Part shown: piece after piece, positions 32,631-42,487 of the stretch
Layout: each line of letters starts with the position of its first letter
Numbering within the stretch: position 1 is the stretch's first letter
Source of the DNA: Gammaproteobacteria bacterium
GTDB lineage: Bacteria > Pseudomonadota > Gammaproteobacteria > Steroidobacterales > Rariloculaceae
Reading direction: 5' to 3'
Assembly: GCA_022820625.1 (NCBI GenBank)
Contig: JAJEFE010000169.1
Span: 62,001 to 126,000, forward strand
DNA length: 64,000 bases
The notes under the pieces: generated by a model
Told to the model about the DNA's origin: nothing
The model's database searches: none
The model's input: the letters and a program-made list of their open reading frames with translations, nothing else
Position numbers and translations under genes: made by a program

Positions 32631-33389
32631 ATGAGAAACCTACTTGTCTGCATCGCGGCGCTTCTCGCAGTACCGGGCGGCAACGCCCAGGAATCCTCTG
32701 GCGTCCTGACAGCCGCCGTCGAGAATCTGGTGGCCGCCAATCGCATCCTGGCGGCCCAGGGAATCCTGCCCGGCTACGGCCACGTGAGCGTGCGCCATCC
32801 GGATGATCCGGGGCGGTACCTGCTGTCCAGATCGATCGCGCCGGAACTGGTGACGGCCGAGGACATCGTGGCATTCGACCTGGACAGTGTCACCGACGAT
32901 TCGCGAGGGTATTCGTACTATCTCGAACGGTTCATTCACGGGGAGATCTACAAGGTCCGCCCCGATGTCAACGCGGTGGTGCACAACCACTCGCCCGCGG
33001 TTATCACGTTTGGAATCGGCGGCACACCGCTGCGTCCCGTATTTCATCAGGCTGCATTCTTCCTTGACGGTATTCCGATCTGGGACTACCGCGATTTCGG
33101 CACGGCGGACGGTGCACTGGTTCATACGCCGGCGCGGGGGGAACGGTTAGCCGAGGCACTTGCGGACAGGCCCGCCGTTCTGATGCGAAACCATGGCGTC
33201 GCGGTAGTGGGATCGACGCTGCCCATGGTGGTGGGACGCAGTATCACGCTCGAGCAAAACGCACAGATGCAAAGCGACGCTCTGGCCAGGGGTAGCGAAA
33301 TCGTCTATCTGGAGTTCGAAAGCGAAACGCCCGGCAGCGACTTCGAGCGTGCCTGGGATTTGTGGAAGCGGCAGGTTGAAATGCCGTAG
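32631..33389 (+). CDS. Exported class II aldolase/adducin-family protein, paralogue 1
   Basis: The 252-residue protein has a signal peptide (MRNLLVCIAALLAVPGGNAQ). A class II aldolase fold follows: AANRILAAQGILPGYGHVSV, RHPDDPGRYLLSRSIAPELV, HNHSPAVITFGI with two zinc-binding His, and LMRNHGVAVVGSTLPM with the third. Relatives in the cytosol cleave or decarboxylate sugar-like and aromatic compounds using zinc. An export signal on this fold is unusual. It lies 57 bp after the FG-GAP gene on the same strand. It is closely similar in design to the exported protein at 53840-54667, including the shared AANRILA and GHVSVRHP blocks. Confidence 0.85.
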   Translation: MRNLLVCIAALLAVPGGNAQESSGVLTAAVENLVAANRILAAQGILPGYGHVSVRHPDDPGRYLLSRSIAPELVTAEDIVAFDLDSVTDDSRGYSYYLERFIHGEIYKVRPDVNAVVHNHSPAVITFGIGGTPLRPVFHQAAFFLDGIPIWDYRDFGTADGALVHTPARGERLAEALADRPAVLMRNHGVAVVGSTLPMVVGRSITLEQNAQMQSDALARGSEIVYLEFESETPGSDFERAWDLWKRQVEMP

Positions 33390-33447: not shown

Positions 33448-34470
33448 CTACGGCGATTGTCGACCCGCGAGCTTGGCGAGTTGCCATTCGGTCCCGGTTT
33501 CGAGACAGAATGCTTCGAGTTCCGATATCGAAGGGAGTGAGGGTTGTGCGCCCATCCGGGTCGCGGCGAATGCGCCGGCACTCGATGCCAACCGCACGGC
33601 TTCGGCTCGCTGTAACCCGCTCCCCCATCCAAAGGCCAAGGCGCCGCTGAATGAGTCGCCGGCCGCAGTCGTATCTACCGCCGCTATCGGCGTGGCAGGC
33701 ACCAGGACGGCTCCGGACTCATCCGCCAATAGCGCGCCAGCCGCGCCCATCGTAATAATCGCGCACGTCGGCCCCATTCCGAGCACCACGCTCGCGGCTT
33801 CACGGGCAGATGACTCGTTGGCGACCCGGACCCCGGTCAGGCCCTCCGCCTCCGAAGCATTGGGCTTTATGCAGGTGACGTTGCGGAGCAGGGCCTCGGG
33901 CAGCGGTTTTTCGGGCGCCGGCGCCGGATCGAGGATGACCGGCACACCCGCCTGAGCGGCGATTTCCGCCGCTCGAGCGACGATGCTCACCGGCAACTCC
34001 AGTTGCATGACCAGAACATCCGCATCTCGAATCGCCCCTGCCGCGCGTTCGATGTCTTCGGGGGACATCGCATAATTGGCTCCGGACGCCACGGAAATCG
34101 CGTTTTCTCCCGCCTCATCGACCAGGATCAACGCCACGCCGGTTGCATTTTCCGAATCGCGCGAGATCAGGTCCGTGTTGATGCCGTCACGCTGATATCC
34201 GGCGATGGCCTGGTCGCCGAACGGGTCCGACCCGACTCGGGATATGAAATGAACGTCGGCTCCCAGCCGGGCCGCAGCAACGGCCTGGTTGGCGCCCTTG
34301 CCACCCGGTGCGACGAAGAACTCCCCTCCGACAACCGTCTCCCCGGGCGTTGGTATGCGCCGGGACTTCACGACCATGTCGGTGTTGGAACTGCCGACGA
34401 CAGCGATTCTGGTCGTTTTCGTGGTATTTCCGATTGTCTTGTCCACGGTTTTTTCCATTGTCGTTTGCAT
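33448..34470 (-). CDS. rbsK: Ribokinase
   Basis: The 340-residue PfkB-family sugar kinase has VVGSSNTDMVV at the start and the substrate signature APGGKGANQAVAAARLGADV near 50. LDPAPAPEKPLPEALL and the C-terminal VDTTAAGDSFSGALAF with the catalytic Asp near 285 are ribokinase hallmarks. It phosphorylates ribose to ribose-5-phosphate in the cytosol. The first 12 residues are lysine/threonine-rich and untypical; ATG 34458 is an alternative start. It is the last gene of a three-gene operon after the sugar permease (83-bp gap) and the exported ADP-ribosylglycohydrolase, which points to ribose derived from ADP-ribose or a nucleoside. Confidence 0.93.
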   Translation of the reverse strand: MQTTMEKTVDKTIGNTTKTTRIAVVGSSNTDMVVKSRRIPTPGETVVGGEFFVAPGGKGANQAVAAARLGADVHFISRVGSDPFGDQAIAGYQRDGINTDLISRDSENATGVALILVDEAGENAISVASGANYAMSPEDIERAAGAIRDADVLVMQLELPVSIVARAAEIAAQAGVPVILDPAPAPEKPLPEALLRNVTCIKPNASEAEGLTGVRVANESSAREAASVVLGMGPTCAIITMGAAGALLADESGAVLVPATPIAAVDTTAAGDSFSGALAFGWGSGLQRAEAVRLASSAGAFAATRMGAQPSLPSISELEAFCLETGTEWQLAKLAGRQSP

Positions 34471-34553
34471 CGTTCTTTCGGCACGGGGAAACGCTTCGGC
34501 GCGCGACGCGAGGCACAGCGACGCGAAGCGATGAAACCGAGGAGTCCCTTGGA

Positions 34554-35552
34554 TCAGGCCCCCGCGGCGATGATGAGGACCAGGCCCAGAATGAAGCTGA
34601 CGAACATCATGCCGATCAGCCTATCCGTGCCCGCAGGTGCGTCCCTGAACTCCTTCCACACGAAGACGCCCCAGAATGCCGCGACCATCGTGGCGCCTTG
34701 CCCGAGTCCGTACGAGATCGCCGGCCCGGCAATGCCGAATGCGATGATGGAAAACAGCATGCCGACACACCAGATCATGCCGCCGGCAATGCCCCATACA
34801 TGGTCCTTGCCTGTACCGCGGAAATACTGGGACGGAGCAATCGGATCGCCCTGGAAAGGCTTCAACATGATGATCGTGTTGACGACGAAATTGCTCAACA
34901 GGATGCCCAGGGAGAAGAAAACCATGGCCGTATACGGGCTCAGCATGCCTGCCTGCATGTCGACAAAGTCAGGCGACATGGCCGCAGCAACGAATCGATA
35001 GAAAAATCCCATGAGAATGCCGCACAGAACGGCCAGTCCGAGACCGAGGGTGCCGCGCGAACCGCCCTGTCCCGGCAGTCGCCTGTAGGCCATCGCATCC
35101 ATGATGATCGCGGCCGTGACCAGGCCCACCCCGGCGAAGAGCATCACCGGATCGCCCTGGGGTTGGGCGACATAGTTCACGACTACGCCGATCACCAGCG
35201 CCAGGCCGATTCCGACCGGAAACGCCACGGCCATCCCCGCGAGCGCGATGGCCGCTACGAGCAGGATATTGGCCACGTTGAAGACGACCCCACCGAGGAC
35301 AGCAGAGCCGAGATGGGTTGTCGACGCCTGGGCCAGATCGTCAAGGAATCCGCGGCCCTCCGAGCCAACGCTTCCCATCGTGAACGCGAAGAGCAGTGCG
35401 GCCAGCAGAACGCCGATCACGTAGTCCCAGTAATACAACTCGAAGCGCCAGGTCCTGCCGGCGAGCTTCTGGGTGTTGGCCCAGGACCCCCAGCAGAGCA
35501 TGGTAATGACGCAGAAGACGACCGCCACTGCGTAGTTTTGCAGTACAAACAT
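34554..35552 (-). CDS. GRP/DMT-type sugar permease
   Basis: The 332-residue inner-membrane protein has about ten hydrophobic segments (YAVAVVFCVITMLCWGSWAN first, MMFVSFILGLVLIIAAGA last). It carries the glucose/ribose-porter-like motif CWGSWANTQKL and the loop LYYWDYVIG. It resembles the GRP sugar-uptake and rhamnose-transporter branch of the DMT superfamily, which import sugars by ion symport. ATG 35552 is preceded by AAGGAA. It lies 27 bp after the ADP-ribosylglycohydrolase gene and upstream of ribokinase, so ribose is the likely substrate by context. The family call is from overall pattern rather than a unique signature. Confidence 0.85.
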   Translation of the reverse strand: MFVLQNYAVAVVFCVITMLCWGSWANTQKLAGRTWRFELYYWDYVIGVLLAALLFAFTMGSVGSEGRGFLDDLAQASTTHLGSAVLGGVVFNVANILLVAAIALAGMAVAFPVGIGLALVIGVVVNYVAQPQGDPVMLFAGVGLVTAAIIMDAMAYRRLPGQGGSRGTLGLGLAVLCGILMGFFYRFVAAAMSPDFVDMQAGMLSPYTAMVFFSLGILLSNFVVNTIIMLKPFQGDPIAPSQYFRGTGKDHVWGIAGGMIWCVGMLFSIIAFGIAGPAISYGLGQGATMVAAFWGVFVWKEFRDAPAGTDRLIGMMFVSFILGLVLIIAAGA

Positions 35553-35579
35553 TTCAGTTCCTTGCAGTTGTTCCGGCGC

Positions 35580-37070
35580 TTACTCGGGATCCGCGCCCGT
35601 GGATGAGTCGGTATTCGGTATGTACCAGAGATCGTTCGCAAGATCGACGCCGCCGCCCATCTCTTCCTGCACTACCCTGTCCACGACCAACACGCCTCGC
35701 TCGGCCATGGCCTGAATCGTATCGATGCCATCGTCGGGGAAGCCGCCGCGCGTTCTGTGGATGTTGTAACGGCCGGAAAACGATCTTCCGAACGCCTGCT
35801 CGACCCCCTCCCTGCCGATCATGAACCCCAGCAGCCCGCCCCATGTCGCCGCAGGATTGTCGGAGTCCCAACCCGCCAGGACGGCGATCTTGACAGTTTC
35901 CCGGTAGTCGCCTTCACCGTACAGGAGGCTGACGATGCTCGCGGCAAAGTTGATGCCGGAGGCGTAGCAGCCATTGCATTCCAGGTTTCTCGATGTCATA
36001 TCGTAACCGTCAGCCTGTTCGACCTGGTAGCGGACATAGACCTCGTCGCGAGCCTGCTCCCAGGGCACACCCGCCTCATAGCGGCTCTTCACGAAATCGA
36101 ACATCTTCGCCGTATAGGATTCGTCCGGCACGCCCTGGCGCGCCCGGTCCGCCATCCAGAAGATCTGGTCCCTCATCGGCAGTTCCTGATCGACCCGCGA
36201 GGCCAGCGAATGCATCTCCACATAGAACTCGGCCGCCCACGCCGCGTTCGCCCAGGCGGTGGTGCGGATCGGCAAATAGGCCATCTCCAGCGCCACGTCG
36301 GGCCGGCCCGGCGCAAACAGGCCGAATATCTCGGTCGTAAGCTGCGCGTCGATCATCTCGGAGTCGGGATTGTTGGCGGGGTCGCCGGTGGCCGGTGGCA
36401 CCAGGCCCTGGACGCGCATCAGGTCGTGTGCCGTCTGGTTCGACACCCAGAGAAAATTCTGTTTGTCGCCGTTTGCGGTGGTAAATGGCGTGTTCTCGTC
36501 GGAATAGATATGCGTGAGCCAGCCATCGCGGATCTGTTCGCCGCTCAAAACGCTGGTCTGATGACTCAACAGCAGGTGCTGGTAGATGTACTCGATATCG
36601 GTGTCGTCGTCGGCACCCCAAATCTCGTCCTCGTCCACAAGCACCCAGTCGATGGTCGTTGAAATTCCGCCCCGGATATTGACCTGATCGGGCTGGCCCC
36701 AGTCGTCGCGGGTATAGAATTCCCCGGCCGGTCCCTCCCCGCCGATCTTGTCCGATTCCGTCACGATCCCGGTCCAGTTCGCGATGCACTGGCCCAGCCA
36801 GAAGCCATAGAGCTTGTCGACATACGCCTGCCGGGATATGACGAGGTCATCGGGCGCCGGCGTATAGGGAAGGTAGTCAAGGGAAGGATTGACCACGGGG
36901 CCGGCGGCGGCGGGCACGTCACCCGGATTCACGGCCTGTGGCTCGCTCTGACTGGATCGCTGTTCACATCCGGACAGGACTAACGTGACGGGCAGGAAAG
37001 CCGTGATGATGGCGACAATTGCCGGCCGGATTCGCCCGGCACAGTCATGACCGGCTCGATGATCGATCAT
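35580..37070 (-). CDS. Lipoprotein ADP-ribosylglycohydrolase
   Basis: The 496-residue protein has an N-terminal lipoprotein signal ending TLVLSGC, so it is anchored outside the inner membrane. The ADP-ribosylglycohydrolase (DraG/ARH) fold follows: YGFWLGQCIANWTG near 90, DDDTDIEYIYQHLL near 155 (magnesium ligands), and AGWDSDNPAATWGGLLG near 410 with the second acidic cluster. Family members cleave N- or O-glycosidic bonds of ADP-ribosyl groups, and some relatives act on nucleosides. ATG 37070 follows GGGAGG at seven bases. It heads an operon with a sugar permease and ribokinase, suggesting it frees ribose outside the cytoplasm for import. The exact substrate is inference. Confidence 0.88.
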   Translation of the reverse strand: MIDHRAGHDCAGRIRPAIVAIITAFLPVTLVLSGCEQRSSQSEPQAVNPGDVPAAAGPVVNPSLDYLPYTPAPDDLVISRQAYVDKLYGFWLGQCIANWTGIVTESDKIGGEGPAGEFYTRDDWGQPDQVNIRGGISTTIDWVLVDEDEIWGADDDTDIEYIYQHLLLSHQTSVLSGEQIRDGWLTHIYSDENTPFTTANGDKQNFLWVSNQTAHDLMRVQGLVPPATGDPANNPDSEMIDAQLTTEIFGLFAPGRPDVALEMAYLPIRTTAWANAAWAAEFYVEMHSLASRVDQELPMRDQIFWMADRARQGVPDESYTAKMFDFVKSRYEAGVPWEQARDEVYVRYQVEQADGYDMTSRNLECNGCYASGINFAASIVSLLYGEGDYRETVKIAVLAGWDSDNPAATWGGLLGFMIGREGVEQAFGRSFSGRYNIHRTRGGFPDDGIDTIQAMAERGVLVVDRVVQEEMGGGVDLANDLWYIPNTDSSTGADPE

Positions 37071-37211
37071 GGGATTCCTCCCTGATTCAGCGTTGAATGG
37101 ACGGCCGGCGCGCTGAACGGCTCAATTCCGATCAGCCGCTTTGCCGACAATGATATCTCAATCGAATTCGATGCTTTTCGAGCGAATGCCTGGCTCCGGC
37201 CCAAGCGTCTT

Positions 37212-38411: not shown

Positions 38412-39761
38412 CTATTGCCGAGCCAATTCGTTTGCAACGCTGAAGAAATAGTTCCTTGCGGTCGGGTTGACTTGCTGCCTGGCGATCCCTCGGAGCGCCT
38501 GAATCTTGATTTCAGTCACTTCCGTGGTCCGATAATCAGTCGCCAACAGATAATCGGCCAATTGCATGGCCCACTGATAGGCTTCAGATGCAACAGCATC
38601 CTGCAACTCCGTGAAGATGTTGTCCGCACCGCCTCCCAAACCAATGATTCGCTCCGCCTGTTCACGCTCGGAAAGCGGCAGGAGAGTGGTTGGATTTCCG
38701 TCAAACCATCCTATCTTTCCGTTGAATACGGACCTGACTCCCCACGGGACCATGCCATAGAACTCGGTAAGGTATGGAGAATCCGCAAGCTCTTCCGGTA
38801 GCGTGACTGTTTCCGCAAGCTGATTGGCCGTCATGCCGTCGTTCATTCCCTCGACCGTTGCTTCATAGACATAACGTATTGCCGAAGCGTAGTCCCCAAG
38901 TGCCTTGTCCACCTGTTCCTCACCGAGAACCGGCCGGCTATGACCCGGGACCAGGTATTCAGCGCCTTCCTGCCGCATTTTCTCCAGGCTCTCGGCCCAT
39001 ACCTTCACGTCCCGGTACATTGCGCCCCTGATCGGATAAAGATTGGGGAATGCCTTGTAAAAGTTGTCACCGGGGAACAGCACCCGTTGCTCGGGCAGCC
39101 AGACATAGAGTTGATCGTCCGTCTCTCCCGGCGCGGCAACCAACTCCACATCGACTCCCTCGATAGTGACTTCAAAACGTTCTTCGCCAAACGTGACGGT
39201 CGGTGGCAGATAGCCGTCCCCTTCCTCGTCCCGGATCGGGTGCTCCGCGGTACCCATGTTGATGAACTCTTCCGAATCCAGAAAAAAGCCGAATTGCCGC
39301 GAGGTACGGGCGAAACTTATTGCACCCAGGTCCGAATCGGGCAGCAGGTTATTGCGGAAACCGGTACGGGCATAGATTTCGAGTTCGCCATCTCCGAGAA
39401 ACTCCGTGGTCCCGCTCGTGTGGTCCACGTGACCATGGGTGTAGATGATTGCCCTTACGGGCAACTCGCTGATCGCCCTGAACTCTTCCAATACCGCTCT
39501 CGCGGCAGACTTGCTCTCCTTGGTGTCAACGATGATCAAGCCCGATTCACCGACGATCATCGCTGAATTCGAAGCGCCGTAACCCGACGCCATGTAAACA
39601 CCGTCGGTTATCTCGATGATTTCCCGGCGAAATTCTTTGGAGTGTTCTCTCAACAGGGATTCTGCGCTGGTGTCTTGCGCATATGCCGTGTGCTGGCCGA
39701 AAACCATGCAGAAAAGGAGTGTCGTCCCAACAGTCAGCCTGTTGCCAATGCCTGTCACCAT
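38412..39761 (-). CDS. Alkylsulfatase-like metallo-beta-lactamase hydrolase
   Basis: The protein is about 449 residues from ATG 39761, with a signal peptide ending AYAQD. The MBL domain has AIIYTHGHVDHTSG (metal site), APGETDDQLYVWLPEQRVLF, PGDNFYKAFPNLYPIRGAMY and LVPGHSRPV. The helical part carries GMVPWGVRSVFNGKIGWFDG and NPTTLLPLSEREQAERI. These are marks of the SdsA1/BDS1 alkylsulfatase family, which hydrolyse sulfate esters of primary or secondary alcohols. The C-terminal SCP2-like domain of those roughly 650-residue enzymes is absent. The frame is open to 39884, but that part overlaps operator site 2, so I chose the start giving a clean signal peptide (39794 is an alternative). It is divergent from the TonB receptor gene. 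Confidence 0.82.
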   Translation of the reverse strand: MVTGIGNRLTVGTTLLFCMVFGQHTAYAQDTSAESLLREHSKEFRREIIEITDGVYMASGYGASNSAMIVGESGLIIVDTKESKSAARAVLEEFRAISELPVRAIIYTHGHVDHTSGTTEFLGDGELEIYARTGFRNNLLPDSDLGAISFARTSRQFGFFLDSEEFINMGTAEHPIRDEEGDGYLPPTVTFGEERFEVTIEGVDVELVAAPGETDDQLYVWLPEQRVLFPGDNFYKAFPNLYPIRGAMYRDVKVWAESLEKMRQEGAEYLVPGHSRPVLGEEQVDKALGDYASAIRYVYEATVEGMNDGMTANQLAETVTLPEELADSPYLTEFYGMVPWGVRSVFNGKIGWFDGNPTTLLPLSEREQAERIIGLGGGADNIFTELQDAVASEAYQWAMQLADYLLATDYRTTEVTEIKIQALRGIARQQVNPTARNYFFSVANELARQ

Positions 39762-39870
39762 GGTCTGTTGCTCCACGCAGCCGTTCAGATTCATTTGCCC
39801 TATTCCGACAGGACATCGATCCGTCGGGAAATGACCCGTGATTTCTCCACCGCTCAATATCGGGCCGGAT

Positions 39871-39886
39871 GCTTGAGATGTCAAGC
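39871..39886. promoter_or_regulatory. Putative MarR operator, site 2
   Basis: GCTTGAGATGTCAAGC has a near-perfect dyad (half-sites GCTTGA/TCAAGC). It lies 110 bp upstream of the alkylsulfatase-like start and 154 bp upstream of the TonB receptor, in their shared divergent region. Confidence 0.6.
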
Positions 39887-40039: not shown

Positions 40040-42487
40040 ATGGTCAAGCGCTCGATTTTTCCGGGGACAATCTACCGATGCGGGCTCGTCGTTATCGCGG
40101 CAAGCCTCACGGGCACCGTCTCCGCCCAGGTGCTGGAAGAGATCATCGTCACCGCCACCAAGCGGGAAGAGGCGCTCACCGATGTGCCCATCTCCATCTC
40201 GGCCATAGACACCGAAAAATTGATCAACAACGGCTGGAACGAGACCACCGATGTGCTGGATTTCGTCCCGAACGTCACCTTTTATCTGAACGGAACGAGC
40301 ACCACGAAACTGAACATACGCGGCGTGCATTCGGACGGTCCCAATCCCTCCCTGGAAGCACCGGTCGCCGTATTCACGGATGGAATCTACAACCCGCGCC
40401 CGGACTTTGTCCGCGCCCCCCTGCTCGACCTTGAAGGCGTGGAAGTGCAGCGAGGCCCGCAGGCGACCTACTACGGCCACAATGCCACAGCGGGGTCCAT
40501 CAGTTTCCGCTCGACGCGCCAGTCCCTTGACGAAGCCGATGGCTTTCTCGTCGTGGAAGGCTCGGCCGAGAGCAGGAACAAGGTCGACTTTGCCTACGGC
40601 GCACCGCTATCCGATACCTTTGGCCTGCGCTTCTCGGGCGCGCTCAGGAATACTTCGGGTCATATCGAGAACATTGCCCAGGACAGGGACGAACCGAAAA
40701 ACGACACTTCCATTTTCAGGTTGAGCGGCGTGTGGGTCCCCGGCGATCAAACCGATGTCTTCTTCAAACTGGAACGCTATGAAGCCGACGTTACGGGCGA
40801 GGTCAGGGAACCCATTACCTGCGGAGGCGCCGGTAACCCCACGGCGCCCGCTCCGTGCCGGGCGTTCGATCCCTCGGCAAGCGGCAGCCTAGTCGGCCAG
40901 GCCGACGTTGCCCTCGGCGTGGACGATCGTATAGCCGAAGGGGCGACAATACTGCCGAATTACACGACACGCATTTTCGGCATGGGGTCCAACGTCACCA
41001 GCACCATTACCAACGTCGCCGACGCGCGTTTCATGTCGCGGTCCGGCACGTTCTCGGAGAACACCCGGGCCGCCCTGGACATCAGCCACGATTTCGGCTC
41101 TTTCACCCTGACCTCCCTGACCGGAATCGAGACCGGTGAACGCAGCCCCTTGAGGGACGCCGACATGACCCCGATTGCCGGCATTTTCACTCATGGCTAC
41201 CAGGACTACGATTACTGGACCGAGGAACTCCGGCTGACCTCGAATACCGACGGTCCCCTCGCCTGGATGGTCGGCGGCCTGATTCAGGGTACGGATGGCA
41301 GCTCATTCGGCCAGGTTGTTCACAACCTGAATGGAGTATGGACAACCAACTCCCATGTCCAGGAAGACAACATTCTCGGACTCTTCTTCGATCTCAATTA
41401 TGACCTGAACGACGCAGTCAATCTGAGCTTCGGCGGCCGCTACACGGATGTGGAAAAGACGGCTGTCGACATAACGTCCAGGGCCCCGTTGAATGCTGAC
41501 GGCACACCGGGTGCTTTCAGTGAGATACTGAATACGGGCACCGGGTTTGTCGCAAATCTGGCGGGTCCGCCTACCTTCGCGGACGGGATTGCCGATCTCG
41601 GAGACGGGACCTATTCCGAAGACAGCTTCGATCCCTATGTTTCGGTTCGGTTCGCGATCAACGATTCGGCCAACGTGTACGCCTTGTGGTCGAGCGCTTT
41701 CAAGGCCGGCGGATTCAGCAATGGTCCGGGCACGGGGCTGCCGTTTTCCGTCCTGCATCCGGCCTTGCCCGATGTCTACGAGTTCATGGGGGAAGAATCG
41801 GAAAGCTTCGAGATCGGTTACAAGGCACTGCTGGCCGACGGACGCGTGGACCTGAATATCGCGGCCTTCTCCACGGAGTTCACCAACCAGCACACGGTTG
41901 TGCCCGCATTCGCTTTCGGGCCTCCACCTTCCCCTGGCGTGGTGTTCTATACCACCGGCGTGGATTCCGAACAGCAGGGCGTCGAAGTCGATGGCAGGCT
42001 CGCCGCGTCAGACAACCTCACCATCACTTTCGCCGGGGCACTGCTGGATGCCGAAATGACCGATCAGGGCATGATGAACTTCTACGGTTGCCTCGATTGT
42101 GCGCCACGGGAACTCATCCAGGCCTCGGACTGGTCCGCTGCGTTCGGCGCCACCTGGTCCGCACCCATTGGAGATGCCTACGAACTGACATTGAACACGG
42201 AGATGGCCTTTGCTGACGGGTATCAGGTGGCCTATGGGGATCCAGGCGTCTTTGAGGATTCGGCTGTCGGCGATGAATTGTGGTTGTGGCAGGATCCCTG
42301 GGAACGAATCAACGTTCGAGCCGCCCTGAGGCCGATCAACGGATACTGGGACGTCTCGGTCTTCGGCCGCAACGTCACCGACAATCGGCGGACGAACGAC
42401 TACGCGCCCGACGGTAACGCAACGCTGTTTTACGTCACGCGGCAGTACGGCGCCGATTGGGGTGTGGCTTTCCGGTACAACTTCTGA
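40040..42487 (+). CDS. TonB-dependent outer-membrane receptor of the MarR-linked cluster
   Basis: The 815-residue protein has a signal peptide ending TVSAQ, TonB box/plug start VLEEIIVTATKREEALTDVP, plug motifs LNIRGVHSDGPNPS and VEVQRGPQATYYGHNATAG, and a barrel ending in YGADWGVAFRYNF with the usual terminal Phe. It resembles receptors of the sphingomonad/proteobacterial type that often take up aromatic or other small organic compounds rather than iron. ATG 40040 follows GGGAGG. Two or three operator-like palindromes lie in its upstream region, shared with the alkylsulfatase-like gene. It converges with the MarR gene, whose stop is only about 13 bp away. Confidence 0.92.
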   Translation: MVKRSIFPGTIYRCGLVVIAASLTGTVSAQVLEEIIVTATKREEALTDVPISISAIDTEKLINNGWNETTDVLDFVPNVTFYLNGTSTTKLNIRGVHSDGPNPSLEAPVAVFTDGIYNPRPDFVRAPLLDLEGVEVQRGPQATYYGHNATAGSISFRSTRQSLDEADGFLVVEGSAESRNKVDFAYGAPLSDTFGLRFSGALRNTSGHIENIAQDRDEPKNDTSIFRLSGVWVPGDQTDVFFKLERYEADVTGEVREPITCGGAGNPTAPAPCRAFDPSASGSLVGQADVALGVDDRIAEGATILPNYTTRIFGMGSNVTSTITNVADARFMSRSGTFSENTRAALDISHDFGSFTLTSLTGIETGERSPLRDADMTPIAGIFTHGYQDYDYWTEELRLTSNTDGPLAWMVGGLIQGTDGSSFGQVVHNLNGVWTTNSHVQEDNILGLFFDLNYDLNDAVNLSFGGRYTDVEKTAVDITSRAPLNADGTPGAFSEILNTGTGFVANLAGPPTFADGIADLGDGTYSEDSFDPYVSVRFAINDSANVYALWSSAFKAGGFSNGPGTGLPFSVLHPALPDVYEFMGEESESFEIGYKALLADGRVDLNIAAFSTEFTNQHTVVPAFAFGPPPSPGVVFYTTGVDSEQQGVEVDGRLAASDNLTITFAGALLDAEMTDQGMMNFYGCLDCAPRELIQASDWSAAFGATWSAPIGDAYELTLNTEMAFADGYQVAYGDPGVFEDSAVGDELWLWQDPWERINVRAALRPINGYWDVSVFGRNVTDNRRTNDYAPDGNATLFYVTRQYGADWGVAFRYNF

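Follow-up and report, generated by a model that had tools for sequence, protein, structure and literature searches.

What is a lipoprotein of the ADP-ribosylglycohydrolase (ARH) family doing next to a sugar permease and a ribokinase? This constellation occurs in the window, i.e. the whole stretch of 64,000 nucleotides analysed here from a gammaproteobacterial genome of the family Rariloculaceae, and had led to the original prediction that ribose or an ADP-ribose-derived sugar is released outside the cytoplasm, imported and phosphorylated. Our data point, with reasonably good confidence, to a ribose-scavenging operon of the type of the ribose-utilization system (RUS) known from gut Bacteroides, in which an exported ARH hydrolase would free ribose, the permease would import it and the ribokinase would phosphorylate it. 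If this is true, RUS-type ribose scavenging is not confined to the Bacteroidota but occurs in a proteobacterial lineage as well, reduced to a minimum of three genes. Exported ARH-family lipoproteins are named ADP-ribosylglycohydrolases by fold alone, and with one hydrolase, one importer, one kinase and zero nucleoside hydrolase in the genome, this organism would offer a clean test case for their substrate.

Organization of the operon

The three open reading frames of 33448-37070 are co-directional on the minus strand and separated by 27 nt and 83 nt, in full agreement with the position, order and short gaps that had been described (Table 1). Besides the ribosome-binding-like hexamer in front of the first gene, an AAGGAA precedes the permease gene. 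Promoter and terminator scans of the operon gave chance-level results; the three genes are presumably co-transcribed.

Table 1. Features of the operon and of its surroundings, with coordinates in the window.
Feature	Position	Strand	Basis
Lipoprotein with predicted ARH fold, gene 1, 496 aa	35580..37070	-	PF03747, lipobox, AF2 model, catalytic motifs
Lipobox LSGC of the ARH protein (residues 32-35; predicted lipidated Cys = residue 35)	36966..36977	-	Sequence
GGGAGG, purine-rich, ribosome-binding-like, 5' of the ARH start	37077..37082	-	Sequence
DMT/GRP-type sugar permease, RusT-like, 332 aa	34554..35552	-	PF07168, weak PF06800, homologues
Ribokinase, 340 aa	33448..34470	-	TIGR02152 above cut-off; seven RbsK residues kept
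Class II aldolase/adducin-domain protein	32631..33389	+	
Metallo-beta-lactamase-fold protein with alkyl sulfatase dimerisation domain	38412..39884	-	
TonB receptor	40040..42487		

The putative exported hydrolase

The product of the first gene matches PF03747 (ADP_ribosyl_GH; E=3.8e-25, 89.6 bits vs a cut-off of 26.2), and no NCBIfam model matched the hydrolase or the permease. An AF2 model calculated from 53 homologues (pLDDT 87.9) predicts the all-helical ARH fold. Its best structural match in the PDB is ARH3 (Z 27.2, rmsd 3.0 over 304 residues), and it also matches MJ1187, DraG and ARH1 at low identity (Z 23-27 including ARH3) as well as ARH-fold immunity proteins. A PDB sequence search, using the window protein and a 53-row profile as queries, returned no significant match. 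The acidic clusters are intact, as had been claimed: E105 (the Glu of WTGxVTE), D154-D155-D156-T157-D158 (DDDTD) and D402-x-D404-N405 (DSDN) are invariant in 52 homologues of the clade, which makes it likely that the metal-site chemistry has been kept.

The protein is also a lipoprotein by its sequence features, since the lipobox follows a hydrophobic stretch, is itself followed by Glu at +2 and contains a cysteine that is nearly invariant (Cys35, alignment A4). Among 81 homologues with an intact 5' end, 49 have a lipobox, called by a simple rule, and a further 30 a signal-like hydrophobic N-terminus, so that the clade appears to be extracytoplasmic almost throughout. Glu at +2 predicts sorting to the outer membrane, where most proteobacterial lipoproteins face the periplasm. 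The ARH lipoprotein is probably periplasmic, and the cell-surface location proposed at first finds no support.

Where the cytosolic YegU of E. coli has NGAAMR, the clade has an invariant IDAQLTTE (by hand alignment, not superposition), and a second exported ARH subfamily from the same kind of operon has IDYQIEAD at this position, with D-x-Q-x-x-x-[DE] as the pattern common to both. Comparison of the ARH profile with YegU by hhalign gave no useful alignment, and the replacement rests on the hand alignment together with the pattern shared by the other subfamily. We read it as a sign of a changed substrate pocket. To our knowledge, no activity has been described for this exported clade.

Permease and ribokinase

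The permease matches PF07168 (Ureide_permease; E=3.8e-21) and, below threshold, PF06800 (Sugar_transport). It is 53-64% identical to single-copy permeases adjoining ribokinase or ARH genes in other phyla, and is itself the only copy at E<=1e-30 in the window genome. Of the ten-segment sugar permease announced by the original prediction, the sugar-transport-type membrane protein stands, and the segment number is approximate, as hydropathy gives nine peaks above threshold, compatible with about ten TM segments. Between G000 and G005 the gene differs by 44 third-position, four first-position and zero second-position changes, i.e. it is under strong purifying selection.

The kinase passes the equivalog model for ribokinase, TIGR02152 (335.9 bits vs a cut-off of 299.65), and conserves all seven residues N14, D16, G42, K43, N46, E143 and D255 of E. 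coli RbsK, which we take from the RbsK structure to be the ribose-contact and catalytic sites. A second ribokinase model, NF008353, is missed just below its cut-off (316 vs 341). In total, the window genome has five PfkB genes.

Recurrence of the gene set

Relatives show that the operon is not a chance arrangement. The complete ARH-permease-ribokinase operon is found in G005 (93/99/86% identity); in G001 the first two genes, ARH and permease, are present up to the contig end, and in G012 these two are adjacent, whereas the ribokinase gene is at a distance of 2.5 kb and has the opposite orientation. Within the family, the distributions of ARH and permease coincide exactly, both being present in the same four of the 22 genomes, which are near relatives with a shared history and not four independent events.

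A broader sample comprises 83 ARH loci (the window, two relatives and 80 loci found by scanning GTDB genomes, with related genomes counted separately). Their neighbours were counted by tblastn, since antisense ORFs mask permeases in GC-rich loci when ORFs are called greedily. Permease and ribokinase are both present within about 8 kb in 13 of the 83 loci, in at least five arrangements, and neither is nearby in 67. Besides the window order ARH-permease-ribokinase, we found permease-ribokinase-ARH in Algoriphagus-type loci, ribokinase-permease-ARH in Flavobacteriales, LacI-permease-ARH-ribokinase in Marinilabilia, permease-ribokinase-nucleoside hydrolase-ARH in a Lewinella MAG and ARH-ribokinase-ARH in a Neomarinimicrobiota MAG (L026:783-4865). 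The search for the same three-gene order, set as a test of the prediction, thus recovered a conserved set whose order is permuted among Flavobacteriales, Cyclobacteriaceae, Saprospirales and Marinilabiliales. A set that stays constant while its order is permuted speaks strongly for a pathway shared by ARH, permease and ribokinase.

Several of these loci have features of their own. In the Neomarinimicrobiota locus, two exported ARH proteins of different subfamilies (24% identical types) flank the ribokinase, and the permease is located elsewhere, beside a LacI-type regulator (L120). A gene pair encoding an amidohydrolase and a DUF6671 protein is conserved upstream of permease-ribokinase-ARH in the Algoriphagus-type loci L067, L077 and L085. 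Some ARH loci have an RbsB/A/C-like ABC importer just upstream (29-39% identity to E. coli Rbs); in marine gammaproteobacterial MAGs (L050, L054, L059) the RbsB/RbsA/RbsC-like importer is followed by ARH and an aldo/keto reductase, an alternative importer with the same kind of hydrolase. A lipoprotein nucleoside hydrolase adjoins ARH in L027 and L046, and polysaccharide enzymes are found among the neighbours of some ARH loci.

From the permease side, we surveyed 41 loci, nearly all Bacteroidales-side (40 from 393 genomes of the order of Marinilabilia and the Neomarinimicrobiota permease locus), for which neighbours were not selected on. Within 6.5 kb of the permease, a ribokinase is present in 28 of the 41 loci, an exported lipoprotein of the second ARH subfamily (24% identity to the window type) in 20 and a nucleoside hydrolase in 13; by our own estimate, based on about five PfkB genes per genome and genomes of 4-5 Mb, fewer than one in 41 would have a ribokinase by chance. 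One of these loci, L133, has the order ribokinase, lipoprotein nucleoside hydrolase, permease, SusC and SusD. In a class-wide search of 369 genomes, five carry the permease and one the window ARH subfamily, all four other permease carriers being without the latter. Besides the window genome, four genomes of the class have permease and ribokinase as a unit of two genes. Because these two genes alone make up a unit there, ribose is the likely cargo of the permease. Taken together, the neighbour counts and the two-gene units indicate that permease and ribokinase are the core unit, to which exported hydrolases would be interchangeable feeders.

The two-gene units (L172-L175, in G746, G504, G642 and G773) have no hydrolase nearby, and three of these four genomes are small, at about 2 Mb. 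Another variant is seen in L151, L152 and L154-L157, where three exported ARH proteins are encoded in tandem within the 8 kb or so that precede a RusT-like permease, and where no ribokinase was detected in the vicinity.

In the permease tree, the proteobacterial copies fall in two separate places among the Bacteroidota, which suggests lateral acquisition; the window pathway was probably acquired from this phylum.

Comparison with known systems

The original RUS paper by Glowacki et al. from 2020 reportedly includes ADP-ribosylglycohydrolases among the RUS variants. The window operon resembles these systems in combining a ribokinase, a DMT permease and exported hydrolase(s), and its permease is 55% identical to that of the RUS-type locus L133 (the comparison being with L133, not with BT2809). 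In similar Bacteroidales loci of the RUS type, exported ARH lipoproteins likewise adjoin this kind of permease and a ribokinase, so that the exported nutritional ARH, presented as a novelty at first, is not new in kind. In contrast to RUS, the window operon is without SusC/SusD, nucleoside hydrolase and a linked regulator of its own, and its hydrolase belongs to a different exported ARH subfamily, at the above-mentioned distance from the RUS-side type. A search of the whole window genome with PF01156 (nucleoside hydrolase) gave no match. Since SusC/SusD and nucleoside hydrolase are missing, we call the operon RUS-like and not RUS, and its gene content characterizes it as a putative stripped-down, compact RUS-like pathway of a proteobacterium.

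In B. thetaiotaomicron, BT2803-2809 is needed for ribose use, with RusT as the proposed carrier of free ribose (PMC12596196). The annotation of this locus comprises a ribokinase, a TonB receptor, SusD, a DUF4969 protein, a nucleoside hydrolase and a DMT permease (PMC10434189). Compared by functional labels, the staphylococcal cassette SERP2216-2218 agrees with the window operon in all three genes and in their order, but its permease is annotated as a member of the cytosine/purine/uracil/allantoin family (PMC3637587).

Proposed pathway and alternative explanations

In the proposed pathway, the lipoprotein would be anchored in the envelope, most likely on the periplasmic face of the outer membrane, and its acidic metal site would liberate D-ribose by hydrolysis of an N- or O-riboside, be it a nucleoside or a similar ribosyl compound; the RusT-like permease would then move ribose across the inner membrane, and ribokinase would convert it to ribose 5-phosphate. 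Points against this pathway are the 67 ARH loci with neither partner nearby, the polysaccharide enzymes near some ARH genes, the lack of a significant PDB sequence match and the absence of a dedicated outer-membrane receptor from the operon. The exported enzyme is most likely an ARH-fold ribosidase or nucleosidase, and the alternation of nucleoside hydrolases with ARHs at these loci makes nucleosides the first substrate candidates. Free ADP-ribose is an unlikely product, since it would meet a ribokinase as partner enzyme and would hardly be carried by a DMT-type permease. Of the initial proposal, release, import and phosphorylation of ribose hold as one apparent pathway, encountered again in different phyla and in combination with two exported ARH subfamilies, whereas ADP-ribose as the released product is disfavoured by the ribose contacts kept in the kinase and by the change from NGAAMR to the invariant IDAQLTTE. 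There is perhaps an even chance that the large and widespread exported ARH-fold clade as a whole consists of extracytoplasmic ribosidases or nucleosidases, not ADP-ribosyl hydrolases, which would stand in for nucleoside hydrolases in ribose scavenging; a fold associated with the reversal of a protein modification would then have been put to nutritional use.

The main rival to nucleosides is a glycan-linked sugar, in view of the GH92, GH9, GH3 and apiosidase-like enzymes encoded at some related loci. The exported ARH would then be a glycosidase acting on a glycan or on a plant or algal glycoside (ribofuranosyl, apiosyl or another pentose), and permease and kinase would handle that sugar. The operon in L027 indeed includes GH92, GH9 and GH3 enzymes, L058 an apiosidase-like enzyme, and several ARH neighbours are CBM and GH proteins, GFO/IDH/MocA proteins or aldo/keto reductases. 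We nevertheless consider this explanation rather unlikely, as the window operon is without a GH partner, both the curated cut-off and the contact residues identify its kinase as a ribokinase, and nucleoside hydrolases recur beside the same permease.

Far less probable is an extracytoplasmic enzyme that strips proteins or other acceptors of ADP-ribose, for protection or reversal, with the adjacent ribose genes as a feeding by-product or a coincidence. The window protein shares the fold (Z up to 27.2) and the acidic metal-site motifs of ARH3 and DraG, and ARH-fold immunity proteins are among its structural matches; but it is only about 11-14% identical to ARH3 and DraG, is exported, comprises 496 vs about 340 aa and has a substituted mid-domain motif at the position of NGAAMR in YegU. 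Moreover, genes for ribose import and phosphorylation repeatedly accompany exported ARHs, in separate phyla and for both of the exported subfamilies, and we know of no ribokinase that acts on ADP-ribose.

A pathway in which a cytosolic ARH acts on a nucleotide sugar or nucleoside, and in which the N-terminal cysteine plays no part in export, can practically be dismissed: its model, E. coli yegTUV (the GgaR operon), likewise joins transporter, ARH-family protein and PfkB kinase in one operon, but YegT is of the MFS type, YegU has NGAAMR and no export signal in contrast to the lipobox or signal-like N-terminus of nearly all homologues here, BLAST gives no significant match of YegU or YegT with the proteins of the window, and YegV is only 28% identical to the window kinase and lacks three of the seven ribose residues.

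Genomic surroundings

The nearest TonB receptor, 3 kb from the operon, is separate and divergently transcribed, and no adjoining SusD was seen. Between this receptor and the operon lies the gene for the metallo-beta-lactamase-fold protein (Table 1). On the other side, the gene for the class II aldolase/adducin-domain protein is convergent with the ribokinase gene, and its product has an apparent signal peptide, indicative of export.
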